This document shows, piece after piece, positions 23,764-51,239 of a stretch of 64,000 nt of DNA. The notes below the pieces were generated by a model that saw only the letters and a list, made by a program, of their open reading frames with translations, did no database searches and was not told the DNA's origin. How positions within the stretch are numbered: position 1 is the stretch's first letter; each line of letters starts with the position of its first letter. A program made the translations under genes and the position numbers. This DNA comes from Sphingomonadales bacterium (GTDB lineage Bacteria > Pseudomonadota > Alphaproteobacteria > Sphingomonadales > Sphingomonadaceae): NCBI GenBank assembly GCA_009995225.1, contig JAACPW010000008.1, forward strand, positions 62,001-126,000, written 5' to 3'.

Positions 23764-23764
23764 G

Positions 23765-26827: not shown

Positions 26828-26856
26828 GCGCGCTGACGGAGGGCGCGAACGGCACC

Positions 26857-29863: not shown

Positions 29864-31249
29864 ATGAGGCAACTTGGGGCAAAGAGGATCGCTGACCTGC
29901 TGTGCGGGCGCGCTGGCTTGCGCTTGGCGGCCGTGCTTGCACTGGCCGCGCTCTACCCTGCGTCCAGCGCGATAGGTAATGCTACCTTCGAAGGCGTGGC
30001 CAGCTGCGCGGGATCGACCTGCCATGGCCGGGCCGAGGGCAATGGCGCAGTTGTCCGGCAGGACGAGATCGCCACCTGGCAGGAGCCTTCCTCCCCCGGC
30101 GGCGCCCATTCCCGCGCCTATGCCGTGCTGGGCGGACGGCGCGGCCAGCAGATCGCCGCGAGCCTTGGCCTTGGCAATGCGCAGTCGGCCCCGGCCTGCC
30201 TCGGCTGCCATGCGACCAATGCGCCCACGGGGCAGCGCGGGGCGAAGTTCACGCTGACTGACGGTGTGGGCTGCGAAAGCTGTCACGGCGCGTCGGGCGG
30301 CGGGTGGCTGGCCGAACATTATGCGTTGCCCGCGACCCATGCCTCGAACATCGCGGCCGGGCTGACCCCGCTGGATAATCCCAAGGCGCGGGCGAACGTC
30401 TGCCTCGATTGCCATTATGGCTCGTCCAAGCCGGGGCAATTTGTCACCCATTCCATGATGGCGGCAGGCCATCCGCGGGTATCGTTCGAGCTTGACCTGT
30501 TCAGCGCGCTTCAGCAGCACCACAATATCGACGGCGATTATACCGCGCGCAAGGGCGCGGCCAATTCGGTGCGGTTCTGGGCGGTGGGTCAGGCCGAGGC
30601 GGTGCGCCGGGCAACCAGCCTGTTTGCCCAGCCCAAATTCGCATACGCGGGCGCATTCCCGCAATTCTATTTCTACGATTGCCATTCGTGCCACCGGACC
30701 ATCGCCGATGGGCCGCAGCGCAGGCTGACGCATGAAGGCAACCCGGGCCGCCCGATCCCCTTCGGCAATCCGCCGTTCAATGACGAGAACATCATCATGC
30801 TGTCCGCCGTGGCCGGCGCGCTGGTGCCGGGCGAGGCGGGGGCGTTCCAGACCGCCAGCCGTGACTTCCACAAGGCGATGGGTTCGGGGCCGGAGCAAAC
30901 GCGCGCTGCCGCACAGGCGCTTTCGGCGCGGGCAGGCGCATTGTCGGATGCGCTTTCGGGCCGCACCTATGCCGGCGCCGACGCCTTCAAGGTGATCGCG
31001 ATCATCGCGGGCGAAGCCACCGCGCCGCGCTTCACCGACTATGCCGGATCGGTGCAGGCGGTGATGGCGGTGGACACGCTGCTCAACGCACTGGTGCGCG
31101 AAGGGCGGGTGACGCAGGGCGCAGCGACGGGCATTCGCGGCGATATCGCACGGGCTTACAAGGCGGTGGACGAACCCAATGCCTATCGCCCGGCCGATTT
31201 CCGTGTGGCGCTGAAAGCGGCGGCAGGCGCCATCGGCAGGCTGCAATAG
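29864..31249 (+). CDS. Periplasmic multiheme c-type cytochrome (c554-like, five heme motifs)
   Basis: A 461-residue exported protein with an N-terminal signal (LRLAAVLALAALYPASSA) and five heme-attachment motifs: an unusual CX4CH (CAGSTCH, 48-54) and four CXXCH (112-116, 137-141, 180-184, 273-277). The spacing resembles the cytochrome c554/hydroxylamine-oxidoreductase-related electron carriers. All motifs lie in the first 280 residues; the remainder is helical. The ATG at 29864 follows a GGGGGGAGA ribosome-binding site by ~5 nt; a longer frame exists but would bury the signal peptide. First gene of a four-gene plus-strand operon. Expected role: periplasmic electron shuttling; the partner is inferred. 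Confidence 0.87.
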   Translation: MRQLGAKRIADLLCGRAGLRLAAVLALAALYPASSAIGNATFEGVASCAGSTCHGRAEGNGAVVRQDEIATWQEPSSPGGAHSRAYAVLGGRRGQQIAASLGLGNAQSAPACLGCHATNAPTGQRGAKFTLTDGVGCESCHGASGGGWLAEHYALPATHASNIAAGLTPLDNPKARANVCLDCHYGSSKPGQFVTHSMMAAGHPRVSFELDLFSALQQHHNIDGDYTARKGAANSVRFWAVGQAEAVRRATSLFAQPKFAYAGAFPQFYFYDCHSCHRTIADGPQRRLTHEGNPGRPIPFGNPPFNDENIIMLSAVAGALVPGEAGAFQTASRDFHKAMGSGPEQTRAAAQALSARAGALSDALSGRTYAGADAFKVIAIIAGEATAPRFTDYAGSVQAVMAVDTLLNALVREGRVTQGAATGIRGDIARAYKAVDEPNAYRPADFRVALKAAAGAIGRLQ

Positions 31250-31251
31250 CG

Positions 31252-33204
31252 ATGCGCAAGCGGGGGACATTCTGGATCGCAGCAACGGCGCTAATCCTTG
31301 CCTCCTGCGGCGGGGAGGATAGCCCGTCCAGCAATGGCGGAGCGACAGGCGGCGGACCCGCGCCCGCGCCCGTGCTCCCGCCCACCGGTCAGGTGTTCAG
31401 CGTTCCCGCGGCCGAAAGTCTGTCCAGCGCCGAGGTCGGAACGGTCATCGCCCAGGCCGCGGCCGAGGCGCGGGCACGCAATGTGGCAGCGACCATCGCG
31501 GTAACCGACAGGGTCGGCAATGTGCTGGGCGTGTTCGCCATGCCTGGCGCAGCGCCGCTGGCCCGTATTCCATCGGCGCCCGATGGCAGCAATCGCGATG
31601 CGCAAGGCCTCGACATTCCCAGTGCAGGCGCCGCCATCGCCAAGGCGATCACCGGCGCCTACCTGTCGAGCAGCGGCAATGCCTTTTCCAGCCGCACGGC
31701 CAGCTTCATCGTGCAGGAGCATTTCCCCCCGGCACCGACCACCGCAGGGCTGGAAAGCGGTCCGCTGTTCGGCGTGCAGTTTAGCCAATTGCCGTGTTCC
31801 GACCTTGCCGCAAGGGCAAGCGACGGCTTCATCGGCCCCAAGCGTTCGCCGCTCGGTCTGGCCGCCGATCCCGGCGGCTTCCCGCTCTACCAGAACGGCG
31901 TGGTGGTGGGCGGGGTTGGGGTCATCGCAGACGCCAGCTATGGCTTCGACCCCAATGTGCTCGACCGCGATGCGGATGTGGACGAAGCGATTGCCTTGGC
32001 GGGCACGGTGGGTTTTGAAGCCCCCGTCAGCATCCGCGCGGACCGCATCACCGCTGATGGCACATCGCTGCGCTACACCGACGTCGAATATCCGCAGATC
32101 GGTAATATCGCGAATGCAAGTTTCGCCGGGACGGCGGGTGCGCTGGTGCCGGTGGCGGGCTATTACGTGGGGACCGCCCTGCTGCCGGGCGCGGCTTACG
32201 GCACCGAAGCATCGGGCATCCGCGCGTCGTCATCTGCCGAATTTGCCAACCGCGATGCCTTCGTGCTGACCAATGGCGCGGGCGCGAACCGCTTTCCGGT
32301 GCGCGGGGCGACCGATGCGGGCGATATCGCCGCGCCGCTCACCGCCGCCGAAGCCCGCGTCATCCTGGAAGAAGCCTTCACCGTGATGAGCCGTGCGCGC
32401 GCGCAAATCCGCCAACCGCTCGATAGCCGCGCGCAGGTGACGATCAGCCTGGTCGACACACGAGGGGCCGTGCTGGGCCTCGTCCGGTCGCCCGATGCGC
32501 CGATTTTCGGGATCGACGTGAGCTTGCAGAAGGCGCGCACCGCCAATTTCTTCTCGGGAGGCTTTGCGGCCAGTGAATTGCTGGCAGCAAGTGGAGAAGT
32601 GCCGCAATTCGTTGCCCGCACCCGCACCTTTCTTGACGATCCCAATGCTTTGACAGGAGCCTTTGCTTTTTCCGACCGCGCCGGCGGCAACCTGTCGCGG
32701 CCCTATTTCCCCGATGGGGAGGTGGGGCAGCCCAATGGCCCACTGTCGCGCCCGATCGCGCAGTTCAATCCGTTTTCGACCGGGCTGCAATCGGCGCTGA
32801 TCGTTGGCAATCTGGCTGAGCATCTTGCGTTTGTGACCGGGCAGAGCGCGCAGGATACGCCGCGCAACTGTTCCACGCTGCCGCAGATCGCAGGCGGCAT
32901 TTCGCGGCTCGCCAACGGGATCCAGATCTTTCCCGGATCGGTCCCGGTCTATCGCGGCAATGTTCTGGTGGGCGGCATCGGGGTGTCGGGCGACGGGATC
33001 GATCAGGACGATATGATCAGCTTCCTTGGCCTTCACAACGGCACGAAGCGCGCTGGCGGAGGGCTGGGCAATGCGCCTGCCGCCATCCGTGCCGACCGGA
33101 TCGTGGTGGCGGTCGGGAACCGGCAGGTGCGCCTGCGCTACGTCAATTGCCCCTTTGCGCCGTTCCTCGATACGGCAGCGCAAAACGTGTGCGAGGGGCT
33201 GTAA
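31252..33204 (+). CDS. GlcG/HbpS-like lipoprotein, duplicated domain
   Basis: A 650-residue protein with a lipoprotein signal and lipobox LASC (Cys19). Two GlcG/HbpS (DUF336)-type modules are recognisable by the segments ARARNVAATIAVTDRVGNVLGV and ARAQIRQPLDSRAQVTISLV, each followed by an SxxxxxAxxKA-like part and a late GGIGVSGDG / GGVGVIAD strand typical of this fold. HbpS relatives bind heme or act as sensors; here heme binding is only a family expectation. It starts 2 nt after the pentaheme cytochrome stop and ends 1 nt before the barrel gene, so it belongs to the electron-transfer operon. Confidence 0.78.
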   Translation: MRKRGTFWIAATALILASCGGEDSPSSNGGATGGGPAPAPVLPPTGQVFSVPAAESLSSAEVGTVIAQAAAEARARNVAATIAVTDRVGNVLGVFAMPGAAPLARIPSAPDGSNRDAQGLDIPSAGAAIAKAITGAYLSSSGNAFSSRTASFIVQEHFPPAPTTAGLESGPLFGVQFSQLPCSDLAARASDGFIGPKRSPLGLAADPGGFPLYQNGVVVGGVGVIADASYGFDPNVLDRDADVDEAIALAGTVGFEAPVSIRADRITADGTSLRYTDVEYPQIGNIANASFAGTAGALVPVAGYYVGTALLPGAAYGTEASGIRASSSAEFANRDAFVLTNGAGANRFPVRGATDAGDIAAPLTAAEARVILEEAFTVMSRARAQIRQPLDSRAQVTISLVDTRGAVLGLVRSPDAPIFGIDVSLQKARTANFFSGGFAASELLAASGEVPQFVARTRTFLDDPNALTGAFAFSDRAGGNLSRPYFPDGEVGQPNGPLSRPIAQFNPFSTGLQSALIVGNLAEHLAFVTGQSAQDTPRNCSTLPQIAGGISRLANGIQIFPGSVPVYRGNVLVGGIGVSGDGIDQDDMISFLGLHNGTKRAGGGLGNAPAAIRADRIVVAVGNRQVRLRYVNCPFAPFLDTAAQNVCEGL

Positions 33205-33205
33205 G

Positions 33206-35059
33206 GTGGCGGCGCTGCTCCCCGCCCTGTTACTGCTGCAACCCGCGCCGCCGCCTGAAGCGGTGCAGCCGCTGCCAGCCCCTCCCGGTGAGGACGCACC
33301 GAAGGACTGGGAGCAGGATATTCCTCCCGTCGATCCCGATATCATCGAAGGTCGCCAGCGCCCCGGCTACACCGCGCCGCTGCCCGAGCGGATCGAACAG
33401 CGTAACGATGGCGCCGTCCGCGCCCCGCCGCCCGAAGCCTTCCCGACAGACCAACTCCCCATCCCCGATCGCTGGCGATTGATCGAAAGCCTCGGCCTTG
33501 TGAAAGAGAGCCTGTTCGATCCCTATAACCAGAACACCTACAAGGGGGATCGCCCGATCAACCGCGCCAAGGTGCCGTGGCTGCCGATCAAGGAGGACGA
33601 CTGGTTTGTCGTCGCCAACCTGATCTCGGACAGCGTTTACGAACCGCGTACCTTTCCCATCCCGGTCGGCGTGCAGACCACCGAAGACCCTGACCGGATC
33701 GACGTGTTCGGGAACGATTTCAGCCAGGTTTTCAGCCAGACCTTCATCGCCGGTTTTGCGCTGCTGAAGGGTTCGACCACCTTCAAGCCGCCGAGCATCG
33801 AATACCGCGTCACGCTGGCTTACAACGTCAACTACGTCGATGTGCCCGAACGCCGCGTGCTGTTCGTCGAACCGTCACGCCCCTCGCACCGGCTTGACCA
33901 GTTTCTGGGCGTGCAGGAAGCCTTCGTCGACTACCACTTCAGCCAGTTCGACAATGACCGGTTCGATTTCATCTCGATCCGGGCGGGTATCCAGCCGTTC
34001 CAGTCGGACTTCCGCGGGTTCCTGTTCAATGATCAGCAGTTGGGCGTGCGGCTGTTCGGATCGCGCGACAACAACCGTTTCCAATTCAATCTGGGCGCGT
34101 TCTGGCGGCTGGAAAAGGACACCAACAGCGGCCTCAACGCGATCCTGCGCAGTCCCCGCGATGATTTCGTGTTCGTCGCCAATGCCTACCGGCAGGATTT
34201 CCTGATCCCCGCGCTGACCAGCCAGATCACCGTGGTCTACAACATGAACCGCGAGGCGGACGATATCCAGATCGACACCAACGGCTTCCCGGTGCGCCCG
34301 GCGCTGCTCGGCACACTGCGGGGCCGGGAATATGACGTGGTCTATCTCGGCTACAACATGGACGGCCGCGTGGGCCGCGTGAATCTGACGGGGAGTTTCT
34401 ACTGGGCGCTGGGCGAGGATCGGAACAGCTTCTTCACCGACCGTCCGGCCAACATCAACGCGCAATTCGCCGCGGTGGAAGCGAGCTATGATCGCAACTG
34501 GATGCGCTTCCGCCTGTCGGGGGCCTATGCCAGCGGCGACTCCGATCCCTACGACGACACCGAAGGCGGCTTCGATGCGATCTTCGAAAACCCGGTGTTT
34601 GCGGGCGCGGACACCTCGTACTGGATCCGCCAGACGATCCCCTTTGCAGGCGGAGGCCGCGCGATTGCGGTCAATGGCCGAAACGGCATCCTCAATTCGC
34701 TGCGAAGCTCGAAGGAGCAGGGGCAGAGCAATTTCAACAACCCCGGCCTGATCCTTGCAGGGGTCGGCGCGGATTTCGATCTGACGCCGCAGTTCCGCCT
34801 GTCGGCCAACGCCAATCACCTGTGGTTCGAGAATACTGCGACCCTGCAGGTGCTGCGCAACGAAGGCTCGATCCCGCGCGAGATCGGCTTTGACCTTTCG
34901 GCTGCCGCGATCTGGCGGCCCAAGGCGAACCAGAACCTTGTGTTCCGTCTGTCCGCCGCCACGCTGCTGGCAGGCAATGGCTTCCGCGACCTGTTCACCG
35001 CGCGCGGCGGCGGACAGGAATTCGTCTCGATCCTCGCCAATGTGGTGCTGACCTACTGA
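33206..35059 (+). CDS. Outer-membrane beta-barrel protein (porin partner candidate)
   Basis: A 617-residue protein from a GTG start at 33206, preferred because GAGGGG precedes it by 8 nt and no in-frame ATG lies after the upstream stop. A short hydrophobic signal (AALLPALLLLQPA) lacks the usual positive residues, then a Pro-rich linker. From residue ~130 onward, alternating amphipathic strands (for example RDNNRFQFNLGAFWRLE and GRVGRVNLTGSFYWALGE) run to the C-terminal NVVLTY, ending in an aromatic residue as outer-membrane barrels do. Its stop overlaps the start of the decaheme gene by 1 nt. Barrel size would suit a porin sheath for a cytochrome, by analogy with MtrB/PioB; no sequence homology is claimed. 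Confidence 0.75.
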   Translation: MAALLPALLLLQPAPPPEAVQPLPAPPGEDAPKDWEQDIPPVDPDIIEGRQRPGYTAPLPERIEQRNDGAVRAPPPEAFPTDQLPIPDRWRLIESLGLVKESLFDPYNQNTYKGDRPINRAKVPWLPIKEDDWFVVANLISDSVYEPRTFPIPVGVQTTEDPDRIDVFGNDFSQVFSQTFIAGFALLKGSTTFKPPSIEYRVTLAYNVNYVDVPERRVLFVEPSRPSHRLDQFLGVQEAFVDYHFSQFDNDRFDFISIRAGIQPFQSDFRGFLFNDQQLGVRLFGSRDNNRFQFNLGAFWRLEKDTNSGLNAILRSPRDDFVFVANAYRQDFLIPALTSQITVVYNMNREADDIQIDTNGFPVRPALLGTLRGREYDVVYLGYNMDGRVGRVNLTGSFYWALGEDRNSFFTDRPANINAQFAAVEASYDRNWMRFRLSGAYASGDSDPYDDTEGGFDAIFENPVFAGADTSYWIRQTIPFAGGGRAIAVNGRNGILNSLRSSKEQGQSNFNNPGLILAGVGADFDLTPQFRLSANANHLWFENTATLQVLRNEGSIPREIGFDLSAAAIWRPKANQNLVFRLSAATLLAGNGFRDLFTARGGGQEFVSILANVVLTY

Positions 35060-38000
35060 TGTTGAAGCTTGGCCAATCCCTCACCCGCCAAATCGCGCTG
35101 CTGGCAGCGGCGCTGGTGCTTGCCGTCGGCCTGTTCGCGGGCGTGCCAATGGCGGCGGACAAGGAGAAGCCGGTCAAGCGTGATTACACCGCCGTTTTCG
35201 CTCCGCCCGCGCCGCAGAACCAATCGGTCGCGGAGATGGAGGCCAAGTCGGCAGGTTGCCTCACCTGCCACATCAAGACCGATGCGCCGACCATGCATGT
35301 CTCGCCCGCGGTGCGGCTGGGCTGCACCGATTGCCACGGCGGCAACCCTTCGGTGCAAGGCAATTCGGACCTTCCGCACAATCACCCCGATTACGTCGGA
35401 GCGCGGGATACCGCGCATGTGCTGCCCAAATATCCGAACAGCTGGCACTTTCCCTCGTCCGCCAATCCGAAGCGATCCTATGCGCTGCTGAATACGGAAT
35501 CGCCCGAATTCGTGAAATTCATCAACCCCAGCGATTACCGCGTCGCGCGCGAGGCTTGCGGATCATGCCATATCGGCGCGATCGAGGCGGCGGAGCGTTC
35601 GATCATGGCGTCGGGCGCGATGCTGTGGGGCGGGGCGAGCTACAATAACGGGATTCTGCCATTCAAGAATTACCTGTTGGGTGAGGCCTACACCCGCGAC
35701 GGCCTGCCCGCGAAGATCACCTCGCCCGGCGCAGGCCCCGGCGGCGTGCTGTCGGAAGATCAGGTTGCGCGCGGGGTGCTGGCAGAGATGTACCCGCTGC
35801 CCACCTGGCAGGTGATCCCGCCAGGCGACGTGTTCCGCGTGTTCGAACGCGGCGGGAGGACCATCAATTCGCAGTTCCCGGAAATCGGCCTGCCCAACCC
35901 GTCAGGCGCGATCCAGCGACTCGAAGAACCGGGGCGGCCCGATCTCAAGCAATCCAACCGCGGCCCCGGCACCGGCCTCCGGGTGGCGATCCCGGCGCTC
36001 AACATCCACAAGACGCGCCTCAACGATCCCTTCACCTGGTTCATGGGCACCAATGATCAGCCGGGCGATTACCGCCATTCGGGCTGCGCGAGTTGCCACG
36101 TGGTCTATGCCAACGACCGCGAACCGCGCCATTCGCTGACCTATGCGCAATATGGCCGCGACGGGCAGACGATCACTGTTGATCCCACCATCGCGGGCAA
36201 GATCGAGCACGCGGCAGGCTATGACGAGAAGATGCATGGTGCGGTGAAGCAGCCGGGGTATGATGATCACGCCGACCACAAGGACGACGGCGCGCTTACC
36301 ACCCCAGATGGCAAGGTGAAGGAAAAGGGCCATCCGCTGAGCCACGTCTTCACCCGCGCGATCCCGACAGCACAGTGCATGAACTGCCACATGCACCAGC
36401 CCAATATCTTCCTGAATTCCTTCCTTGGCTACACCATGTGGGATTACGAAAGCGATGCGCCCTCGATGTGGCCCAAACAGCAGAAATACCCCACCGCCGA
36501 AGAAGTGCGCGCCATCAACGAGCGCAATCCCGAAGCCGCCGCCGCGCGCGGCAACTGGGGCGATCTCGATTTCCTGCGCAACGTCTATGATCTGAACCCG
36601 ACTCTCAAGGACACGCAGTTTGCCGATTACCACGGCCACGGCTGGAATTTCCGCGCGATCTTCAAGCGCGACCGTGAAGGCAATCTGCTCGACGCCGACG
36701 GCGCTATCGTCGACAACGATGATCCGGAAAAATGGCGCAAGGAAGGCGAAGGCAAGTTCGTCCCCGCTGGCACCAATCCCGGCAAGGCGGTCCACATGAT
36801 GGACATCCACGCCGAAATCGGGATGCAATGCGCTGATTGCCACTTCGAACAGGACAGCCACGGCAACGGCCTCATCTACGGCGAAGTCGCCAACGCGATC
36901 GAGATCACTTGCAAGGACTGCCACGGCACGCCCGACGCCTATCCCACGCTGCGCACCAGCGGCCCCGCCGCGCCGCCGGAAGGCCACAACCTTGCCCTGC
37001 TGCGCAATCCCGACGGCCAGCGCCGGTTTGAATGGATCGAGGGCGAGGATGGCAGGCGCAAGCTGATCCAGCGTTCCATCGTCGATCCCAAGCTCGAATG
37101 GGAGATGAGCCTCGTCAAGGATTCGGTCGATCCCGCTACGCCGACCTTCAACGCCAAGGCCGCGCGGGCGAAGCTGGTCAGCCGTTACGGCGCGGAAACC
37201 GGCAATTTCGAATTTGGCACCGGCATCGGCATTGACGACCGTGCCCACCGCGATCCCGAAATAGCGTGCTTCACCTGCCACCTTTCTTGGACGACGTCCT
37301 GCGGCGGGTGTCACTTGCCCATCGAAGCCAACTGGAAGACCAAAAGCCACAAATACGAAGGCGGCGAGACGCGCAATTTCGCGACCTACAACCCGCAGGT
37401 CGCGCGCGACGAGATGTTCCAGCTGGGCAAGCACCAGACCACCAAGGGCAATCAGGTCGCGCCGGTGCGCTCGTCCTCGGCGCTGGTGCTGTCCTCCACC
37501 AACATCAACCGTGAACGGATCTATGTGCAGCAGCCGCCGATCAGCAGCATCGGCTTTTCCAGTCAGGCCTTCGCGCCGCACTTCCCGCATACGGTGAGGA
37601 AGACCGAGACCAAGACCTGCACCGACTGTCACCTGTCCGCCAAGGACGATAACAACGCGATCATAGCGCAGCTTTTCCTGCTGGGCACCAATTACGTCAA
37701 CTTCGTCGGCCTGAACGCATGGACCGGCCTTGAAGGCGGGTTCCAGGCCACACGCGTCACCGAATATGACGAGCCGCAGGCGGTGATCGGTTCCTACCTC
37801 CACCGCTATGCCTATCCCGATTACTGGGGCCTTCATGTGGACCAGAACGGCCGCGAGCTGAAAAACTGGGTGCGGGGCAAGACCTTCGACAAGAACCTCA
37901 GCGGAGAAACCCAGCCGTTCGAGGAATTCGTCAATATCCACGAAGGCACGTCCGGCCGCGTCGGCTGCCTGCAATTGCGCGGCGAATATATGTTCGTGGC

Positions 38001-39156
38001 GGGCGGCAAGGGCGGGTTTACCGCCTATGACGTGGCGAGCATCGCCAACAAGGGTACGTCCGAGCGCATCCTGAAGGGTCCGTTCTCGCCGCTTGGGCAT
38101 GATACCAACGTCAGAACCACCAATGCTACCTGCATGGCGCTGCCCACCAACCAGCCGATTGCGCCCACCCGCAGCACGCCGGATATGCGCACCATCAATC
38201 AGGAACAGGCATTCCTGCCGATCTACAGCTATGCGGTGGTGACAGATGCAGTCGAAGGTCTGATCCTTGTCAACGTCAACACGCTGGCGGACGGCGAATT
38301 CCGCAACAACAAGCTGACCCGCAAGATCTTTGCGGGCGGCGCCGATGCCTGGAATCCCGATGGCGTACTGACGGGGGCGCGGCACGTCGTGCTGGCGGGC
38401 GAGATCGCCTACATCACCGCCGACAAGGGTCTGGTGGTGGCCGATCTGGCTGATCCCGGCGCGCCAAAGGTCGCGGCGGTGCAGCCCTTGCGCGATGCCC
38501 GCGCATCGGCGGTGCAGTTCCGTTACCTGTGGGTGACGGATGCCGAGGGGGTGAAGCTGTTCGATGTCACCAACCTGCGTGCGCCGGTGGCCTTGCCTGA
38601 AGGCACCGTGCCGCTCGCCAATGCGCAGCGGATGTATATCGCGCGGACCTATGCCTATGTCGCGGCCAAGGGGGATGGGCTGGTGATCCTCGATGTGAAG
38701 AACCCGCGCCGCCCCCGCGTCGCCCAGAAGGTGACTCTGGATGGCACGCTGAACGATGCGGAAGACGTGATCGTCGGCACCACCAACGCCTCGCTGTTCG
38801 CCTATGTGGCGGACGGGCGCAACGGGATGAAGGTGCTGCAATTGACCAGCCCGGACAGCCAGCGCAATTTCTATGGGTTCAGCCCTGCGCCGGTGCCGGA
38901 GATGATCGCCTGGGCGCGGACGCCATCGCCGGCAATCGCGCTGTCCAAGGGCCTCGACCGTGACCGCGCGGTGGACGAGACCGGCGGTCAGATGGCGGTG
39001 TTCGGTCGGCTCGGATCGCGGCCCTTTACAAGGCCCGAAATGGAGCGTCTGTTCATGACCCGCAGCGGTGTGCCGTGGAAAGTCTCGGACGAGATCGACA
39101 TGAACCGCTGGGTCGGCATCGCGCCGCAAGGGCCGCTGCGGGCCGCGCGGCGCTAA
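35059..39156 (+). CDS. Decaheme cytochrome fused to LVIVD-repeat propeller
   Basis: A 1365-residue exported protein (signal peptide to about MAADKEK). Ten CXXCH motifs lie at about residues 67, 89, 167, 343, 440, 591, 619, 738, 748 and 855, followed from ~950 by at least five LVIVD-type blades (such as YAYVAAKGDGLVILDVKNP and YLWVTDAEGVKLFDVTN), predicting a C-terminal beta-propeller. This combination of multiheme wire and propeller is uncommon. The propeller could bind the outer-membrane partner or an extracellular substrate. It is the last gene of the plus operon, and its stop is 3 nt from the stop of the convergent phosphodiesterase gene. Confidence 0.88.
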   Translation: MLKLGQSLTRQIALLAAALVLAVGLFAGVPMAADKEKPVKRDYTAVFAPPAPQNQSVAEMEAKSAGCLTCHIKTDAPTMHVSPAVRLGCTDCHGGNPSVQGNSDLPHNHPDYVGARDTAHVLPKYPNSWHFPSSANPKRSYALLNTESPEFVKFINPSDYRVAREACGSCHIGAIEAAERSIMASGAMLWGGASYNNGILPFKNYLLGEAYTRDGLPAKITSPGAGPGGVLSEDQVARGVLAEMYPLPTWQVIPPGDVFRVFERGGRTINSQFPEIGLPNPSGAIQRLEEPGRPDLKQSNRGPGTGLRVAIPALNIHKTRLNDPFTWFMGTNDQPGDYRHSGCASCHVVYANDREPRHSLTYAQYGRDGQTITVDPTIAGKIEHAAGYDEKMHGAVKQPGYDDHADHKDDGALTTPDGKVKEKGHPLSHVFTRAIPTAQCMNCHMHQPNIFLNSFLGYTMWDYESDAPSMWPKQQKYPTAEEVRAINERNPEAAAARGNWGDLDFLRNVYDLNPTLKDTQFADYHGHGWNFRAIFKRDREGNLLDADGAIVDNDDPEKWRKEGEGKFVPAGTNPGKAVHMMDIHAEIGMQCADCHFEQDSHGNGLIYGEVANAIEITCKDCHGTPDAYPTLRTSGPAAPPEGHNLALLRNPDGQRRFEWIEGEDGRRKLIQRSIVDPKLEWEMSLVKDSVDPATPTFNAKAARAKLVSRYGAETGNFEFGTGIGIDDRAHRDPEIACFTCHLSWTTSCGGCHLPIEANWKTKSHKYEGGETRNFATYNPQVARDEMFQLGKHQTTKGNQVAPVRSSSALVLSSTNINRERIYVQQPPISSIGFSSQAFAPHFPHTVRKTETKTCTDCHLSAKDDNNAIIAQLFLLGTNYVNFVGLNAWTGLEGGFQATRVTEYDEPQAVIGSYLHRYAYPDYWGLHVDQNGRELKNWVRGKTFDKNLSGETQPFEEFVNIHEGTSGRVGCLQLRGEYMFVAGGKGGFTAYDVASIANKGTSERILKGPFSPLGHDTNVRTTNATCMALPTNQPIAPTRSTPDMRTINQEQAFLPIYSYAVVTDAVEGLILVNVNTLADGEFRNNKLTRKIFAGGADAWNPDGVLTGARHVVLAGEIAYITADKGLVVADLADPGAPKVAAVQPLRDARASAVQFRYLWVTDAEGVKLFDVTNLRAPVALPEGTVPLANAQRMYIARTYAYVAAKGDGLVILDVKNPRRPRVAQKVTLDGTLNDAEDVIVGTTNASLFAYVADGRNGMKVLQLTSPDSQRNFYGFSPAPVPEMIAWARTPSPAIALSKGLDRDRAVDETGGQMAVFGRLGSRPFTRPEMERLFMTRSGVPWKVSDEIDMNRWVGIAPQGPLRAARR

Positions 39157-39159
39157 GCG

Positions 39160-40044
39160 TCAGTCCCGCTCGGCGAACATCCCTTCGATCATCGGCTGCA
39201 ACGCTGGGGTAAAGCGCGCCAGCACCTGCCAATCGCCCACGCGTTCGTAATGCGACACAAGGCTGCGCCCGTCCCAGCGGTGCAAAGCATAGGTTGGCGG
39301 TTCGGTGGTGATCAGTTCGCGGTTGTCGGGCGCGTGCTTGTCGATCGGGGTCAGGTCCATAGCCACCAGCGGCGCGACCGAAGGCGTGACGCCCAGCGGA
39401 ATGCCCGCAAAGCGCGTGGTGATCGGGCGGTGGAGGTGCCCGCAATGGATCGCCTGCACCTGATGCTGGCCCTTCAACACGCGGTATAACCGTTCGATCC
39501 ACGGCTCGCCCGGCGCCGGGTCCATCCAGTCGATCCCGGAACCAACCGGGGGGTGATGCATGAAGATCAGCGTCGGCTGACCCGGAGCCTCGGCCAGCTG
39601 GGCCGCCAGCCACGCGGCGCGCGCTTCGCAGAACGCGCCGCCGTGGCGCCCCTCTTCCAGCGTATCGAGGCAGATGATGCGCAGGCCCAGCGGCGCTTCG
39701 ACCGCATAGTGCAGGAACCCGCCCTCGGCAGGCATAACCTGCGGGAATGCGCTCAGCAGCCCCGCGCGGCTATCATGATTGCCGACCAATGGCAGGATCG
39801 GGATGGGGCAATCAGCCAGCAAAGCTGCGGTCTTGGCGAAACTTTGGACATCACCGTGATCGGTGATGTCGCCGGACAGAACCAGCAGTTCGGGCCGGTT
39901 GGGGCCATCGAGCAGCCGGGCCAGCGTGGCGCGGAAGCGGGTGAGGTTCAGCTCTTCGGGTTGTTCATCGGGCGCGAAGCCGACGTGGATGTCAGTGATC
40001 TGGGCGATCAGCACAGCGCGCGAGGGTACCAGATCGAGCCTCAT
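39160..40044 (-). CDS. cpdA: CpdA-type class III cyclic-nucleotide phosphodiesterase
   Basis: A 294-residue cytoplasmic metallophosphoesterase with the complete class III cyclic-nucleotide PDE motif series: TDIH, SGDITDHGD, GNHD, HHPPVGSG and HCGHLH. Expected reaction: hydrolysis of 3',5'-cAMP (or related cyclic nucleotide) to the 5'-monophosphate. Its ATG overlaps the end of the FHA-decaheme gene by 4 nt, so it is the last gene of the minus operon whose first gene contains two cyclic-nucleotide-binding domains; a local role in resetting that signal is inferred. Confidence 0.88.
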   Translation of the reverse strand: MRLDLVPSRAVLIAQITDIHVGFAPDEQPEELNLTRFRATLARLLDGPNRPELLVLSGDITDHGDVQSFAKTAALLADCPIPILPLVGNHDSRAGLLSAFPQVMPAEGGFLHYAVEAPLGLRIICLDTLEEGRHGGAFCEARAAWLAAQLAEAPGQPTLIFMHHPPVGSGIDWMDPAPGEPWIERLYRVLKGQHQVQAIHCGHLHRPITTRFAGIPLGVTPSVAPLVAMDLTPIDKHAPDNRELITTEPPTYALHRWDGRSLVSHYERVGDWQVLARFTPALQPMIEGMFAERD

Positions 40045-41840
40045 GGCTTCAGTCCCGCCGGGCCGGCAAGCGATGCTATGGCCGCCTTGTCAGGGACAGG
40101 CCGATAATGCGGTTTGGGCCCCTTGGTGGCCCATTGTCCGGCGGGCAGGTGATAGGCGTGGCACATCGCGCAATCGGACGGCACAACTTTTTTGGTCTTC
40201 ACCGCCGTCGCGCCCAGATGGCAATCGCGGCAGCTTTTCAGATCGGGGATCAGCAGATCGCTGGCAACCTTCGATGTGTCGGCGGCATGGCAATCGGTGC
40301 ATTCTTCCTTTTTGTGCGCTTCATGGTTGAAGTAACCGCTGCTCAGGAAGCGGTCGGGCAGGTTGACCGGCATGAGATCGGCCTGCCCGGTGGGGCCACG
40401 GGTGGGCAGGTGACATTCGGTGCAGACACCGCCGACAGACAGCGCATTTGAAAGCCCGATGTAAGCGCGCACCGGACGCCCGAAATCGGCTGCGTAGGCG
40501 GGCGAGGCGCTGCCGATCTGTACGGGGCGCTGGCGCACCGGGCCGACACGCCGGCGCGGGCCGGAGGAGATGCGGGCAAGGTCTTCGGCCAGATCCTTCA
40601 CATCGCCGTGGCGCAGCTTGCTGAAGCCGCCGCCGGCGGTGCGCCCGGACACGAGGCTGTGACAGCCTTCGCAGGACTCCTCCATTTTCACCTCCTTGAA
40701 CGCCAGCTTGTCGGGCGTGAGCGCGTGGCAGTCGCCGCATTCGAGCGGTTTGCCATATTGCCGCAGCGAAAGTGCCATGCGTGCAGCCCCGCCGCGCGCG
40801 TCCATGTGGACGTCATGCGGGAAGACAAGGCCCGATCGTTCGACAGGCTTCGTTCCCGGCTTGGCGCGCACCGGCTTGGCCGCGCCAAAGCTGGCGAAAT
40901 AGACCGGGCGGAACTGCGGGTGCCCTTTGCCAAAGTCGTGTGCATTGGCGAGGCTGGTGTCGGTCAGACGGGTATCGAGCTTGTCGTGGCAGTCCGAACA
41001 GAACGCCTCTCCGCCCGCAGGCTGGCGCACCGGGCCTTCGTGTTCCGAATGGCAGGAGACACAGCCCAGCGGCCCTTCCTTGCCAAAGCCTTCCGCAATC
41101 CGCCATTGCAGCGCATCGCCGGGAGAGAGCGCGGGGGCACCCCCGGCGAGCCGCGGCATGGGGGCGTGGTTCCCGGTATCCTCGTGGCAGGAAATACAGG
41201 TTTCATCCTGCACGCTTTTGAAGGCAGCGACGTGGCAGCTTTCGCAATTGTCCTTCAGACTGTGGTGCTTCACCGACAATTCGCCGCTGCTCCATGCACT
41301 GTCGAGCAGCACGGCGCCGGGAGTCTTGCCGGTAGGGTCGGGTTTGGTGGGCGTGCGCAGCAAGTGGCTGGCGACGGGCACCATCAGCAGCAACAGCAGG
41401 ATGGTGCCTGCCAACACCCAGCTCATCGCCCGCTTCGACGGCAGCACGCTGGCGAGCGCGAAGCCGCGCAGGGCATCGGTCTTGCCCTCTTCGGCAGCGA
41501 TCTGGCGGATGGTGATCGCGATGCTGCCGTCGGCTTCCGCCGCAATGGCCAGCCGCGCCGCGCCCAGCGCGATTTCCCCTCCGGTGCGCGGGTCGATGGT
41601 GCCTTGCATGACCATCCGGCCATCCAGCGCAAAGCCCAATGTGCCAAGCGCCGACGCGTGGAGCATCCCGTCTCCGGCACGCTCGATCCGCACATGGTGC
41701 TGTTCCACCGCAAGATCGGGCAGGTGAATGTCGTTTTCAGCCGCGCGGCCCACGGTGAGGCTGGTCTGCTCGGCGATCCGGTCACGGATGATTTCACGCC
41801 CGGCGGCGGTGAAATCGATGGTGCGGATCAGGAACGCCAT
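40041..41840 (-). CDS. FHA domain - transmembrane - decaheme cytochrome
   Basis: A 599-residue protein with no signal peptide at the extreme N terminus. Residues ~25-105 form an FHA-like phosphothreonine-reading domain (LTVGRAAENDIHLPDLAVEQHHVRI), residues ~139-160 one membrane helix, and the rest is periplasmic with ten CXXCH motifs (about 199, 215, 260, 281, 368, 390, 473, 514, 537 and 557). Topology predicts cytoplasmic FHA and periplasmic hemes. It starts 10 nt after the membrane cytochrome b gene and overlaps cpdA. A role as quinol-to-periplasm electron relay controlled by a cytoplasmic phosphoprotein is inferred. Confidence 0.85.
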   Translation of the reverse strand: MAFLIRTIDFTAAGREIIRDRIAEQTSLTVGRAAENDIHLPDLAVEQHHVRIERAGDGMLHASALGTLGFALDGRMVMQGTIDPRTGGEIALGAARLAIAAEADGSIAITIRQIAAEEGKTDALRGFALASVLPSKRAMSWVLAGTILLLLLMVPVASHLLRTPTKPDPTGKTPGAVLLDSAWSSGELSVKHHSLKDNCESCHVAAFKSVQDETCISCHEDTGNHAPMPRLAGGAPALSPGDALQWRIAEGFGKEGPLGCVSCHSEHEGPVRQPAGGEAFCSDCHDKLDTRLTDTSLANAHDFGKGHPQFRPVYFASFGAAKPVRAKPGTKPVERSGLVFPHDVHMDARGGAARMALSLRQYGKPLECGDCHALTPDKLAFKEVKMEESCEGCHSLVSGRTAGGGFSKLRHGDVKDLAEDLARISSGPRRRVGPVRQRPVQIGSASPAYAADFGRPVRAYIGLSNALSVGGVCTECHLPTRGPTGQADLMPVNLPDRFLSSGYFNHEAHKKEECTDCHAADTSKVASDLLIPDLKSCRDCHLGATAVKTKKVVPSDCAMCHAYHLPAGQWATKGPKPHYRPVPDKAAIASLAGPAGLKP

Positions 41841-41850
41841 GCCTGCACCC

Positions 41851-42732
41851 TCACCAATAGTAGAACACGGAGATCACGTGCGCGGTGAGCGCGGCGATCA
41901 GGGCGATGGTCAGCGGGATATGGATGAACAGCCAGATTTCCAGCATGGCCCGGATGCGCAATGCGCCCCGGATCTGGGCTAGCTGATCGCGGCGACGCTC
42001 CAGCAGCGATCCCACCCGCGCCGTCTCTTCTGAATTGCCGCCCATCCTTTTCAACGCGCGGGACGTGGCACAGCCGGGATAGCGTCCGGTCAGGCGCGCC
42101 AGAGGTCCGCCGTAAAAGACGTCCTGCGCCAGCGCGGCTATCACCAGATCCGCCTCGGCCCGGCCCAGCGGTTGGGCGGCGCTTTCCAGCTGGCGGTCGA
42201 TCGCGGTCAGCGCGTCCAGCATTTGCGCGCGGGTCATCTCCTTGCGGTTGGAAGAAAGACTGGCGGGCAACGTGGCATAGACAACCACGCCGTAAATCCC
42301 GGTGACGATCACCAGCAGCATCAGGACATAGGCGAGCGTGTGGACATTCCAGCCCATCTGGAAACCGGTGTGCAGCGTTCCGACAACCGCCAGCGACAGG
42401 CCGAGATAGACATGCGCCGATGTCCACGCCTTGAGGCTCCAGGCACCCGGATTGATCCGCCGCTTGCGCACACCCAGCAGCGAAAGCCACAGGATGAGGC
42501 CAAAGCCGATGGTGCCCAGCGTATAGCCGTACCACGTCCCGCCATTGGGGCGCGGCTCCTGATCGATCAGCACATAGCCCGCGATGCTTGCCGCACTCAG
42601 CGCGAGGGCAATCCACAGCCAGCGAAAGCCGCGGTGTTTCAGAAAGCTGACATGATCGGAATCGCGCCGCTTTTCATCCTGCGTGAAGCGTCCCGTGCCA
42701 CCTTTCGTCTGGGCCGCCTTGGTCGCCATCAT
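41851..42732 (-). CDS. Membrane b-type cytochrome-like protein
   Basis: A 293-residue integral membrane protein with about five hydrophobic helices (starting near residues 36, 66, 104, 133 and 262). Membrane histidines His107, His121, His131, His271 and His285 could ligate two b hemes. The ATG pair overlaps the stop of the upstream FAD/Fe-S gene (ATGATGA context), and GAGG sits ~7 nt before. Between helices 4 and 5 is a soluble helical loop (~160-255). It probably links the cytoplasmic Fe-S protein and the quinone pool to the decaheme protein; I do not recognise a named family. Confidence 0.72.
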   Translation of the reverse strand: MMATKAAQTKGGTGRFTQDEKRRDSDHVSFLKHRGFRWLWIALALSAASIAGYVLIDQEPRPNGGTWYGYTLGTIGFGLILWLSLLGVRKRRINPGAWSLKAWTSAHVYLGLSLAVVGTLHTGFQMGWNVHTLAYVLMLLVIVTGIYGVVVYATLPASLSSNRKEMTRAQMLDALTAIDRQLESAAQPLGRAEADLVIAALAQDVFYGGPLARLTGRYPGCATSRALKRMGGNSEETARVGSLLERRRDQLAQIRGALRIRAMLEIWLFIHIPLTIALIAALTAHVISVFYYW

Positions 42733-45266
42733 TCGGCATCCTCGGTCAACTTGGTGAAGGTCAGGAACTTGTCGGGGCTGACGCGGATCGCAGCGCCGGT
42801 GGGGCAGGCGCGCACGCAGGCCGGGCCGCCGTCGATGCCGGAGCACATGTCGCACTTGATGGCCTGCTTGGCCTTGGGCGTGCCGTCCTTTGCAGCCGCC
42901 TTCTTGCGCCAGTTGTAGGACGCTTCGCCCGGCCCCGGCCCCCTGCCGAACAGCATCCACTGGAGGAGGCTGGGCTTCTTCGGAGGCTTCGCGTCCATGC
43001 GGATCACGCCGTAAGGGCAATTGCGCTGGCAATTGCCGCAGCCGATGCAGGTGTCGTCGATGAACACTTCGCCATCAGGCCCGCGCTTGATCGCATTGGG
43101 CGGGCAATCGGCCATGCAGTGCGGGTGTTCGCAGTGGCGGCATGACGTCGGCACGTGGAGGTGCGCGTAGGTGCGCCCCGCTTCCCGGTCGAGCCGGGTC
43201 AGGCCATCATGGCTGTCAGCGCAGGCCTTTTCGCAATTGTCGCAGCCGATGCACAGTTTTTCGTCGATCAGCAGCACATCGGTTGCTTCCCCGATGCCGT
43301 TGTCGACCAGGAACTGCGCGGTTTCGGAATAGAGATCGACCGCGCCGCCAAAGCTGTCCTTGCGGCTTTCGATGAAGGCGTTGGTGGCGCGGCGGCCCGC
43401 CATGTCCTTCATCGCCTTTTCGCGCAGGGCGGGGTTCTTTTCGAGCAGCGCGAGGAAACCCTCGCCCGGCAAGCGGATCACTTCGGACTTGATCGCCGCC
43501 TTCACTGTTGCGGTGCGCAGGCTACCGTCGATCACCGCCATTTCCCCGAAATAGCTTCCGGCGGGGAGGTAGGAGAGGAACACCGGACGCTCGCCAATCG
43601 CCTTTTCGACGATCATCGACCCGCGCCGGATGATGAACACGTCCTTGTCATCCGCGCCCTCGGCCACGACTACTTCGCCTGCACGCTTTTCCTCGACCCT
43701 CGCGGCTTCCACCAGCGCGGCGACGTCTTCGCGTTTGAGGCCCGATCCGAACATCTGAAGCAATTGCCGCTCGATCGAGATGCGCTGGATCGCGGCCTTG
43801 GCCGTAGGCACCTGCGATTGCAGCTTGAGCGCGGCGAGGCGCGAGATTTCGACCACGATGGTGTCTTCGGCAGCGCGAATGGTCGCGCCCCGGCGGCGGC
43901 CGGAGATCAAGCCGACTTCGCCAAAGATCGAACCGGCTTCGATAGGGATGGTGATGGAAGGATCGGCCGGGTTGACCTCGACCGCCACAGACCCGCTGGC
44001 AATCCCGAACAGCGATGATCCGGGTGCGTTGCGTTCAAAGATCACTTCGCTGGGGCCGAAGAAGCGCGCTTCGGAATCAAGCATGAATTCGCGCATCTGA
44101 AGCGGGTTCATGCCGTTCAGGATCGACACATTGGTGCGCAGGAATTCCAGCCATTCGCCGGTGCTGCGGTTGCCGGGAAGGCTGGCGAACTTGGCGGCGA
44201 TGATAGGCTCGTCCGCAGGCTTCAACTCGGTATTGCCGTTGATGAACTCGATGACATCGTGGCCCTGGTTCATGCAGTGCTTGATCAGCGGATAGCCTGC
44301 CAGCGCGCCGATCACGAAAATGCCGGGCGCGGTGCTTTCAAACACGGGGGAGAGCTTGGGAAAGGCGCTGCGGTCCTCGCTCGAGAACTCGATCCCGCAT
44401 TCCTCGACGAATGCACGCGGCGGGGCCGAGCCGATGCGGGCGATGATCCGGTCGCACGGGATGCGCAATTCGCCGTCGCGAGTGGTGAGCGTGATGAACC
44501 CCGGCTCGATGGATGCGGTTTCGCTCTCGGTGCGGATCATCAGCTTGCCGGCTTCGTGATCCGCCATCAACGCCTTGACATTGGCGTCCTTGGCGGTGGG
44601 GAATTCGGTCCCACGGTTGAGGATCGACACGGTGTTGCGCTGCGCCGGGTCTTCGGCCAGCCCGCGCGCATTCTCGATGCCCGCATCGCCGGTGCCGACG
44701 ATGACGATATGCTCGTCGACATATTCGGCCGGGTCATCCAGCTGATACTGCACATGCGGCAGGTCTGCACCGGGGCAGCGCATCCGGTTGGGATTGCCTT
44801 GCGTGCCGATGGCGAGGATGACGTTTTGTGCCATTACCGTCTCGCCATTGGCCAGCTCGATGGCATAGGGCGGGGCGTGGCGCTGGATGTCGCGCACGGA
44901 CTTTGTGCCGTCCCGCGCACGGGTGACGAGTTGCTGCACAGAGCCGGGGATCGCATCGCCGGTGCCGCGGATCGCCCTGGCCTCGGCGTGGTATTTCACA
45001 TGGACCTTGTGGCCCGCGATCTGTTCGTCCCACAGCCCAAGGATCACCTCGCGCTTGCCCGCCTCGAAGTCGATGTCGCTGCGCAGCACCAGATTGGCAG
45101 GGGTTGCCATCACGTGCTTGCCCTTTTGGTATTTGTAGATCGTGTCCGACAGGTGATCGGTTTTTTCCAGCAGCACATGGCTCAGCCCGAGCGCCGCCGC
45201 ACGCGCAGCCGCGCTCAGCCCTGCCGGGCCTGAACCGATGATCGCAACCGTGTAAATCTCGCCCAA
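42729..45266 (-). CDS. FAD oxidoreductase fused to two cNMP-binding domains and four [4Fe-4S] motifs
   Basis: An 845-residue cytoplasmic fusion. Residues 1-345 form a thioredoxin-reductase-like flavoprotein (GSGPAG at 11-16, NAD(P)-binding GTGDAG at 191-196). Residues ~400-490 and ~520-610 are two Crp-like cyclic-nucleotide-binding domains; both keep the phosphate-cassette Gly-Glu and Arg (IFGEVGLISGRRRGATI; YFGEMAVIDGSLRTATV). Residues 665-830 carry four cysteine motifs of the DmsB/NrfC type (672-682, 709-721, 740-750, 805-821). Electrons from NAD(P)H or a dithiol could pass via FAD and Fe-S clusters to the membrane cytochrome encoded next, with flow gated by cAMP/cGMP. First gene of the minus operon. 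Confidence 0.9.
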   Translation of the reverse strand: MGEIYTVAIIGSGPAGLSAAARAAALGLSHVLLEKTDHLSDTIYKYQKGKHVMATPANLVLRSDIDFEAGKREVILGLWDEQIAGHKVHVKYHAEARAIRGTGDAIPGSVQQLVTRARDGTKSVRDIQRHAPPYAIELANGETVMAQNVILAIGTQGNPNRMRCPGADLPHVQYQLDDPAEYVDEHIVIVGTGDAGIENARGLAEDPAQRNTVSILNRGTEFPTAKDANVKALMADHEAGKLMIRTESETASIEPGFITLTTRDGELRIPCDRIIARIGSAPPRAFVEECGIEFSSEDRSAFPKLSPVFESTAPGIFVIGALAGYPLIKHCMNQGHDVIEFINGNTELKPADEPIIAAKFASLPGNRSTGEWLEFLRTNVSILNGMNPLQMREFMLDSEARFFGPSEVIFERNAPGSSLFGIASGSVAVEVNPADPSITIPIEAGSIFGEVGLISGRRRGATIRAAEDTIVVEISRLAALKLQSQVPTAKAAIQRISIERQLLQMFGSGLKREDVAALVEAARVEEKRAGEVVVAEGADDKDVFIIRRGSMIVEKAIGERPVFLSYLPAGSYFGEMAVIDGSLRTATVKAAIKSEVIRLPGEGFLALLEKNPALREKAMKDMAGRRATNAFIESRKDSFGGAVDLYSETAQFLVDNGIGEATDVLLIDEKLCIGCDNCEKACADSHDGLTRLDREAGRTYAHLHVPTSCRHCEHPHCMADCPPNAIKRGPDGEVFIDDTCIGCGNCQRNCPYGVIRMDAKPPKKPSLLQWMLFGRGPGPGEASYNWRKKAAAKDGTPKAKQAIKCDMCSGIDGGPACVRACPTGAAIRVSPDKFLTFTKLTEDAE

Positions 45267-45375
45267 CTATCCTCCCCTCTCGGATAGAGTGCACCCCGGA
45301 TCGCAGCATACCCAAATCGGGCTTCGATGCCAGAGCGAATTGCCCCGTAGGGCGGGCGGTGCTAGCGGTTTGTCC
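45267..45375. other. Divergent promoter region of the minus electron-transfer operon
   Basis: A 109-bp gap between the FAD/cNMP/Fe-S gene (minus) and the CcmI-like gene (plus). Both promoters must lie here or inside flanking genes. I see no FNR-type TTGAT-N4-ATCAA or CRP-type TGTGA-N6-TCACA palindrome. Confidence 0.4.
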
Positions 45376-46326
45376 ATGGGAACAGGGGATCAATCGCCCG
45401 GCGGCGGTGCATCGAAAGCGGGATGGGTTTTGCTGGGGGCAGCCTTGTTGCTGGCGGCAGGCTCAATCGGGTTCAACATCTATCAGGGTTCGGGCGGTCA
45501 AAGCGCAGCGCAGGCCCCCACCGATGGCTCTGCGACAATCGAACAATTGCGCGCTGCGGCCGAGGCATCCTCCAATGATGCGAGGCCGTGGGGCGATCTT
45601 GCCTATGCCCATTTCGGGCAAGGGCAATATGCCGAAGCCGCAGCCGCCTATCGCCGCGCACTCGAAATCGCCCCGGATGAGGCCGTGTTGTGGTCGGCAC
45701 TCGGCGAAACGCTGGTGCTGGGAAGCGAACGCGATCCGATGCCGCCCGAGGCCTTGGAGGCGTTCCGTAAAGCCGTTGCGCTCGATGCGTCCGATCCGCG
45801 CGCGCGCTATTTCCTCGCAGCCAAGAAGGACTTGGACAAGGATCACCAAGGCGCCCTGGCCGCGTGGCTCGATCTGCTGGCCGACAGCCCGCAAGGCGCG
45901 CCGTGGGAGGCCGATCTGGTTCGCACCATCGAACAGGTGGGGCAGATCAACCAGATTGATGTCGCCCCCCGCATCGCCCAGGCGCAATCGAGCCGCACCC
46001 CTGCGTTGCTGGCGCCGGGATCGGGCAGCTTGGCGGGTGATGCCGCATCGAACAACCTGCGCGGCCCCAGCGCGGCGGAGGTTGCAGCGGCGGGTGCGAT
46101 GAAGCCGTCCGAACAGCGCGACATGGCCGAAGGGATGGTCGCACAACTCGAAGCGCGGCTGCGGCAGGAGCCCGGCAATGTCGATGGCTGGGTGATGCTG
46201 ATGCGGAGCCGCATGACGCTGGGCGAACCGGCCAAGGCCAAGGCCGCCCTGGATGCGGCGGTGAAGGCCAACCCGGCGCAGGCGGCGCAATTGCGTGCGC
46301 AGGCAGCGGGGCTGGGGGTGGAGTAG
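45376..46326 (+). CDS. TPR protein, CcmI/CycH-like (cytochrome c maturation)
   Basis: A 316-residue protein with one N-terminal membrane anchor (GWVLLGAALLLAAGSIGFNIY) and periplasmic TPR repeats (for example GDLAYAHFGQGQYAEAAAAYRRALEI and ALEAFRKAVALDASDPRARYFLA), plus a C-terminal TPR-like MLMRSRMTLGEPAKAKAALDAA. This arrangement matches the C-terminal half of CcmI/CycH or NrfG, which present apocytochrome c to the heme ligase. Its placement beside 25 heme-attachment motifs supports a dedicated apocytochrome chaperone. The ATG at 45376 has no strong ribosome-binding site, so the start is tentative. Confidence 0.75.
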   Translation: MGTGDQSPGGGASKAGWVLLGAALLLAAGSIGFNIYQGSGGQSAAQAPTDGSATIEQLRAAAEASSNDARPWGDLAYAHFGQGQYAEAAAAYRRALEIAPDEAVLWSALGETLVLGSERDPMPPEALEAFRKAVALDASDPRARYFLAAKKDLDKDHQGALAAWLDLLADSPQGAPWEADLVRTIEQVGQINQIDVAPRIAQAQSSRTPALLAPGSGSLAGDAASNNLRGPSAAEVAAAGAMKPSEQRDMAEGMVAQLEARLRQEPGNVDGWVMLMRSRMTLGEPAKAKAALDAAVKANPAQAAQLRAQAAGLGVE

Positions 46327-51191: not shown

Positions 51192-51225
51192 GGGGCGCTT
51201 AAAGCGCACCCCAGCGCCCCCGTCT

Positions 51226-51239
51226 TTGCGCGAGATCAA
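51226..51239 (-). promoter_or_regulatory. FNR-type box upstream of hemN
   Basis: TTGCG-CGAG-ATCAA matches the FNR consensus TTGAT-N4-ATCAA at 8 of 10 positions, 35 nt before the hemN start and overlapping the last codon and stop of the preceding small gene. It shares the CGAG spacer with the ccoN box. Confidence 0.55.

Follow-up and report, generated by a model that had tools for sequence, protein, structure and literature searches.

The described system closest to the one reported here is PCC4 (He et al. 2017, PMC5566968). In the main text of that paper, it comprises a porin, an Fe-S protein with a pfam13247 domain, other redox proteins and an inner-membrane protein (IMP) with five transmembrane helices, two WX3HX13H motifs and an SGXXG motif; its three periplasmic cytochromes carry 4, 5 and 10 heme sites, the tetraheme being of c554 type. 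It was found in Fe(II) oxidisers, a PCC3 cluster was found in a Mn(II)-oxidising Erythrobacter, and the authors modelled PCC4 as a route of electron uptake. The term 'cyclic nucleotide' is absent from that main text. Here, we describe a locus in a stretch of 64,000 nucleotides from a Sphingomonadales bacterium (assembly GCA_009995225.1, contig JAACPW010000008.1, positions 62,001 to 126,000), hereafter 'the window', which encodes multiheme cytochromes together with a flavin and Fe-S protein carrying two cyclic nucleotide-binding (cNMP) domains. By its named relatives, the window sits close to Erythrobacter/Porphyrobacter, and the order referred to below should be Sphingomonadales. The system is real and widespread, and it is related to PCC4 but distinct from it.

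The locus (window positions 29864-46326) is filled by nine open reading frames (ORFs), named A to I, instead of the eight genes counted in the initial annotation. The plus strand carries A-B-C-D and the minus strand E-F-G-H, with I divergent from H. Since D ends at 39156 and the stop of E is at 39160, the two convergent operons are separated by 3 nt, as previously noted. Domain scans and modelling also recovered the parts that had been proposed: a fusion of FAD, two cNMP and [4Fe-4S] domains, a membrane protein of di-heme b type, and a barrel. The features are as follows.

29864-31249, plus strand: A, c554-type multiheme cytochrome with 4 CxxCH and 1 CX4CH
31252-33204, plus strand: B, HbpS-like domains (PF03928, 71.9 bits), lipobox read from the sequence
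about 33206-35059, plus strand: C, outer-membrane barrel by model, AlgE-like (start codon assumed; the ORF opens at 33026)
35059-39156, plus strand: D, decaheme cytochrome (10 CxxCH) with a C-terminal LVIVD propeller region
39160-40044, minus strand: E, metallophosphoesterase, predicted cyclic-nucleotide phosphodiesterase
40041-41840, minus strand: F, FHA-like domain, membrane helix and periplasmic decaheme part (10 CxxCH)
41851-42732, minus strand: G, inner-membrane b-type cytochrome with two WX3HX13H and [S/T]GxxG
42729-45266, minus strand: H, FAD/NAD(P) domain, two cNMP domains and a [4Fe-4S] ferredoxin part
45289-46326, plus strand: I, CcmI/NrfG-like tetratricopeptide repeat (TPR) protein, likely ATG start at 45376
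26857-28914, plus strand: CHASE2-guanylate/adenylate cyclase upstream of A, a possible signal source outside the core

The flavin part of H resembles a FAD-NAD(P) domain of TrxR/YpdA type, and the protein matches PF13247 at 42.2 bits (cut-off 26.2). I matches TPR_CcmH_CycH (PF23914) at 47.2 bits (cut-off 42). E scores 129 bits with the SpdA model (cut-off 400) and 72.8 bits with CpdA (cut-off 225), G scores below the cut-off of PF01292, and C has no Pfam match.

Comparison with PCC4 and other described systems

A profile search for G in a sample of 398 genomes of the phylum gave 28 matches at 1e-4, 15 of which were strong (<1e-60). Among the strong matches, two fusions of H and G were observed (L252:3052-6423, 1123 aa; L253:11850-15206, 1118 aa), each followed by an F with nine CxxCH and no adjoining B-C-D. 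Among the weak matches, three contigs (L256 to L258) fit the description of PCC4, as judged by their architecture. The order in L257 is pentaheme, putative porin, FAD/NAD(P)-Fer2 reductase, tetraheme, two-cNMP Fe-S protein, IMP and decaheme. Heme counts are 5, 4 and 10 in L257, 4 and 10 in L256, and 3 and 10 in L258.

The inner-membrane core is shared with these contigs: their two-cNMP Fe-S protein matches the C-terminal half of H (E 2.5e-50, 429 columns), their IMP matches G (profile, E 2.1e-17, 218 columns) and their tetraheme matches A (1.8e-8 to 2.0e-12). G carries the motif set of the PCC4 IMP, two WX3HX13H and SGXXG, and the PF13247-bearing H lies directly upstream of G, as in PCC4 of subgroup II. 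For F, matches to the PCC4-like decaheme are confined to the heme-motif parts (4.5e-6 to 3.3e-9). The rest differs. The FAD/NAD(P) domain is fused into H and is of another family than the separate Fer2/FAD_6/NAD_1 reductase of L257; the HbpS lipoprotein B is absent there; the propeller decaheme D has no counterpart, with only 36 columns around heme motifs aligning; C compared with the PCC4-like porins gives an hhalign probability of 0.4 (34 C sequences against two porins assigned by position only); and the heme counts are 4+1, 10 and 10 here, against 4, 5 and 10 in PCC4. With H (C-terminal half), G and A homologous, and C and D without counterpart, the window system reads as a sister of PCC4 that shares the inner-membrane core but differs in its flavin entry and in its outer-membrane part. 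The initial annotation knew of no named system with this set; PCC4 is a published relative.

The likeness to other systems is more remote. PCC3 also combines a porin, outer and inner cytochromes and an IMP with the same motif pair, but its cytochromes have medians of 34 and 21 hemes at 22-39 aa per heme in the figures quoted by He et al. (PMC5566968), whereas here no protein has more than 10 hemes, at 60-137 aa per heme. MtrCAB, PioAB and MtoAB resemble the locus in concept, as a barrel and a decaheme across the outer membrane. They differ in that C has 18 strands by model with AlgE as best match, that D is a protein of 1365 aa with a propeller, and that the inner-membrane input is a route of flavin, Fe-S and b heme instead of CymA. 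The Geobacter extHIJKLMNOPQS genes likewise encode a porin-like protein, several multiheme cytochromes and a b cytochrome, and residues 581-632 of D match the ExtM model (2.2e-15); D scores, however, 56 bits against a cut-off of 800, over these 52 residues only. The inner part of the ext system is of Rieske/b type, and no cNMP or flavin protein is described for it in the available part of the source (PMC5877670). Finally, ferric reductases and NADPH oxidases share with the locus a cytosolic NAD(P)H and FAD part, two b hemes on HX13H pairs and an outside acceptor. The analogy of the IMP to ferric reductase and NAD(P)H oxidase was drawn by He et al. (PMC5566968). In the window system, four Fe-S clusters and the cNMP domains stand between flavin and b hemes and the electrons go to a decaheme; this is a likeness of layout, with no sequence relation shown.

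Among the articles searched, which did not include paywalled ones, preprints or supplementary files, none was found to describe the seven-gene block defined below, and none combined multiheme cytochromes with a cyclic nucleotide-binding or an FHA domain. Among the matches listed, none of the nine proteins scored above the cut-off of a curated model for a nitrite, sulfite or tetrathionate system (for H, among the best 25 of 99 families), a result in support of the initial reading.

Conservation of the gene set

Of 296 genomes examined in the window's order, 75 gave a match to H (E <= 1e-100), and the identical 75 gave one to D (E <= 1e-40). At least five genera (g1, g16, g17, g19, g20) hold both presence and absence, and H and D agree in them. 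The genomes are related, and the two sets are not independent draws. The distance between H and D was at most 20 kb in 41 of the 75; the genes were more than 20 kb apart on one contig in 15 (up to 2.2 Mb; four at 21-93 kb) and on different contigs in 19, to which draft assembly may contribute. In the 74 H neighbourhoods fetched from the family, F and G were present in all 74, E in 71, I in 56 and a homologue of the cyclase in 17. A, B, C and D were all-or-none, in 40 neighbourhoods each. Where A-B-C-D lay away from H, the block was intact and ordered in all 20 fetched loci, and no other same-strand gene family was common to these 20.

The same association was found beyond the order. In the phylum sample, D was detected in 11 genomes (E <= 1e-15). 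Eight of these belong to the window's family, two to different families of its class and one to another class; the three outside the family also carried H, with the remaining genes at distances of up to about 30 kb, B being undetected in one of them. When named genomes were scanned, at least 578 stretches encoding a relative of D were obtained. We retained the best 80 of these, ranked by likeness to the distant D heading the query, as 'named loci', many of which are cut by contig ends. Their titles span Alpha-, Beta- and Gammaproteobacteria (for example Colwellia, Thalassotalea, Parahaliea, Steroidobacter, Duganella and Dokdonella). Two titles stand apart, a 'Bordetella parapertussis' and a 'Candidatus Marinimicrobia' metagenome-assembled genome (L208 and L219); judging from their D, about 60% like the proteobacterial ones, these are likely mislabelled or mixed bins.

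Among the 80 named loci, D was present in 80, C in 79, B in 71, F in 65, H and G in 63 each, and A in 61. All seven genes occurred in 45, and 34 had the exact one-strand order H-G-F-B-C-D-A. When at least 9 kb was available upstream of D, which was the case for 61 loci, H, G and F were present in 59: the order was H-G-F-B-C-D in 53, H came last in four, two had no match to B, and the remaining two had only B-C-D. E had no match in the 80 loci at the threshold used, and the cyclase had one in three. We therefore define the core as the seven genes H-G-F-B-C-D-A. E and I, which had initially been included in the system, have no place in the operon of the named loci and are family-level neighbours. 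The expectation that the genes would be conserved together in other genomes was thus borne out, both by the joint occurrence of H and D in the order and by the recurrence of the set in other orders and classes.

Conserved sites in the proteins

The 25 heme motifs reported initially were recovered as 24 CxxCH and one CX4CH, distributed over A (4+1), D (10) and F (10). In the fetched family neighbours these counts were kept without exception (A and D in 40/40, F in 74/74). For complete ORFs of the named loci, A had 4+1 in 57/57; F had 10 in 61/63, the other two having nine and one CX4CH; and D had 10 in 78/79, the remaining one having eight. This argues that the motif set is more than chance. 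The fifth heme site of A is the CX4CH, kept in all 40 and all 57 homologues.

Besides its ten heme histidines, F has exactly ten other histidines conserved at 90% or more (138 sequences), which suggests a bis-His wire. A has seven such histidines beyond its five heme histidines, and D has 16 beyond its ten. Spacing is 60 aa per heme in F, 92 in A and 137 in D. Conservation also differs, with D highest (median identity 57.0% over 79 loci; 422 of 1365 positions at least 95% conserved in 120 sequences) and F lowest (28%). Structure prediction failed for D (mean pLDDT 50.0, pTM 0.37), and D had no match among Protein Data Bank (PDB) sequences at E 0.1; F had weak c7 and FHA matches only.

The FHA-like domain of F keeps the Gly-Arg pair (Arg in 114/135) but not the Ser. 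Of the family sequences, 7 of 75 have the full GR..S..H signature, and of the named ones, 5 of 63. The Ser for phosphothreonine is absent in 68/75 and 58/63, so that direct phosphoprotein binding is doubtful. In a fraction of the named loci, genes for a PP2C phosphatase and an FHA protein directly follow the conduit operon (for example L148:14985-17135), an arrangement that recalls the threonine-phosphorylation control of other envelope machines. Among 69 usable loci, the PP2C gene was found in 23, the FHA gene in 23 and both in 20. A link to Ser/Thr phosphorylation is thus possible in those lineages.

For the entry proteins, 133 sequences of H were compared. The 16 cluster cysteines were kept in all of them, and the FAD and NAD(P) glycine motifs were invariant. 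An Asn-Arg pair ends the second NAD strand (131/133 and 132/133); by comparison with known folds, it leans towards NADP(H). In the first cNMP domain, a Glu was kept in 132/133 and an Arg in 133/133, and in the second, in 116/133 and 133/133; we take these to be the phosphate-contact residues. The cNMP domains are placed between the flavin and the Fe-S clusters, so that ligand binding could open or close the electron path. The initial annotation had proposed control by cyclic nucleotide and by phosphoprotein binding. The near-complete conservation of the Glu and Arg residues speaks for the former, as predicted binding, while the missing Ser of F speaks against the latter.

G has two WX3HX13H in 73 of 74 family loci and three in the remaining one. 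It has two in 60 of 62 named loci, the two misses being mis-called ORFs of 3 and 37 aa, and [S/T]GxxG was present in all nine sequences inspected. Consensus sites for FNR, CRP and Fur were sought upstream of H and A. In the window, no good site for any of the three was found upstream of either gene. Among the family regions upstream of H, sites with one mismatch were found in 3/74 for FNR (1.3 in shuffles) and 3/74 for CRP (0.4), and with two mismatches in 26 for FNR (14.7) and 15 for CRP (5.7). As the shuffles preserve base composition only, we consider this a mild excess.

For the outer-membrane part, B is a predicted lipoprotein, and the model of C is a narrow barrel of AlgE/OprD type with 18 long strands and AlgE as the best fold match. 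For MtrB, He et al. 2017 quote 28 transmembrane regions (PMC5566968). MtrB is absent among the best 50 fold matches listed for C, which we do not count as an exclusion. In the model, C thus resembles an 18-stranded AlgE-like channel more than a large cytochrome sheath, so that the 'porin-cytochrome' wiring of the initial annotation is unproven.

Direction of electron flow and role of D

Our preferred reading, held tentatively and at slightly less than an even chance, is that H-G-F-B-C-D-A form one system that carries electrons outwards from NAD(P)H to D, with a cyclic nucleotide at H gating the flow and with D as a specific terminal oxidoreductase. Electrons would pass within H from NAD(P)H to FAD and four [4Fe-4S] clusters, then to the two b hemes of G, to the ten bis-His hemes of the membrane-anchored F, and through the pentaheme A to D at the outer membrane. 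B and C would hold D there and bring a particular soluble substrate. D would act on it as terminal oxidoreductase and not as an unspecific outlet, and cyclic nucleotide bound to H would gate the flux. Of this, the gene content, the co-occurrence, the invariant cofactor residues and the homology of H (C-terminal half), G and A to PCC4-like proteins are observed; the direction, the order of carriers beyond H-G-F, the location of D, the substrate and the gating are what we infer. That the parts are conserved together across genomes is consistent with the single path, from inner membrane to periplasm and outside, predicted initially. With a cytosolic NAD(P)H flavin domain joined to Fe-S clusters that pass electrons to two b hemes, the system is built like a reductase directed outwards, a direction that is also favoured electrically, as negative charge leaves a negative cytosol. 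In the window's family, the predicted phosphodiesterase E, which adjoins F in 71/74 loci, accompanies the cNMP-bearing H. Poor conservation has been reported for the multiheme cytochromes that serve extracellular transfer (PMC12977616); that D is the most conserved protein of the set thus favours it as a specific terminal oxidoreductase, as does the narrow AlgE/OprD-type barrel modelled for C.

Several observations weigh against this reading. TrxR-type flavin domains can also reduce NADP+, and the relative PCC4 was modelled as uptake. The conserved histidines of D would suffice for ten bis-His hemes, which suits a wire equally well; its high conservation might also come from close packing against B and C; and its failed model gives no structural support for a catalytic site. 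Of the 15 strong matches to G, 11 have D and four lack it: G464 has B and C up to the contig end, G315 ends just past F, and G463 and G347, of one genus, have the fused H-G and the nine-CxxCH F with no B-C-D adjoining.

The main rival to outward flow, which we regard as rather unlikely, is uptake as He et al. drew it for PCC4: D would take electrons from Fe(II), Mn(II), reduced humics or another donor outside the cell and hand them on to A, F and G, with quinone, or NAD(P)+ by way of H, as the final acceptor. The core shared with PCC4-like clusters and the Fe(II)- and Mn(II)-oxidising carriers of PCC4 and PCC3 speak for it. However, the B, C and D part is not that of PCC4, reduction of NAD(P)+ against the membrane potential requires a low-potential donor, and the named carriers, as given in the record titles, include many organisms known as heterotrophs. 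Outward flow might instead be unspecific, with D or A passing electrons through or around C to minerals, humics or electrodes in the manner of Mtr. A barrel, a lipoprotein and two to three multiheme cytochromes found together would fit, as would the invariant bis-His sets of F, but we consider this unlikely: the modelled C is AlgE/OprD-like and, at 18 strands, smaller than MtrB, D is strongly conserved, and the spacing of hemes in F, A and D is far from the wire-like values quoted for PCC3.

A special case of our preferred reading would be a reductase of oxyanions or metal(loid)s like the ext system of Geobacter. ExtI, a porin-like protein in a cytochrome-rich cluster, is needed there for selenite and tellurite conversion (PMC5877670). 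The ExtM match of D points the same way, but it is short and far below the cut-off, and neither a Rieske protein nor a rhodanese is present among the nine proteins, which makes this case very unlikely. That H-G-F and A-B-C-D are unrelated modules, neighbours by chance in the window, might be thought from their being unlinked in 34 of the 75 genomes of the order. This explanation, to which we give next to no probability, is already contradicted by their identical occurrence in the 296 genomes despite separation, and by their forming one operon in other orders and classes.

Genomic surroundings

Near H-G-F, positions 49881-59255 hold an island for low-oxygen respiration, with a hemN-like gene (324.9 bits, cut-off 324.95), a Cu P-type ATPase, FixH, CcoG and a cbb3 oxidase (ccoN, ccoO and a FixP-type gene). 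On the other side, a row at 14502-28914 encodes a ShlB-like transporter, a 2454-aa MBG-domain protein, a CHAT/TPR protein and the CHASE2 cyclase; the adjacency of the first two suggests a two-partner secretion pair.

Significance

Porin-cytochrome systems have mostly been studied in metal-respiring or iron-oxidising bacteria. The related system described here, with its flavin and cyclic-nucleotide-binding entry and its other outer-membrane part, recurs in carriers whose titles are mostly those of heterotrophs. It may be a second-messenger-gated electron valve, in which a ligand on H would switch electrons of NAD(P)H onto a path over the b hemes and the 25 c hemes that ends at D. D would be a new decaheme oxidoreductase of the outer membrane, equipped with a channel and a heme-binding lipoprotein of its own, and the system would serve aerobic heterotrophs of three classes; stated in this full form, the proposal is possible but on balance doubtful. 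Should the gating prove true, it would couple second-messenger signalling directly to the flow of electrons across the envelope. Provided that D is an enzyme, the extreme conservation of this protein points to a redox reaction of the envelope that has so far gone unrecognised and is common in oxic waters and soils.

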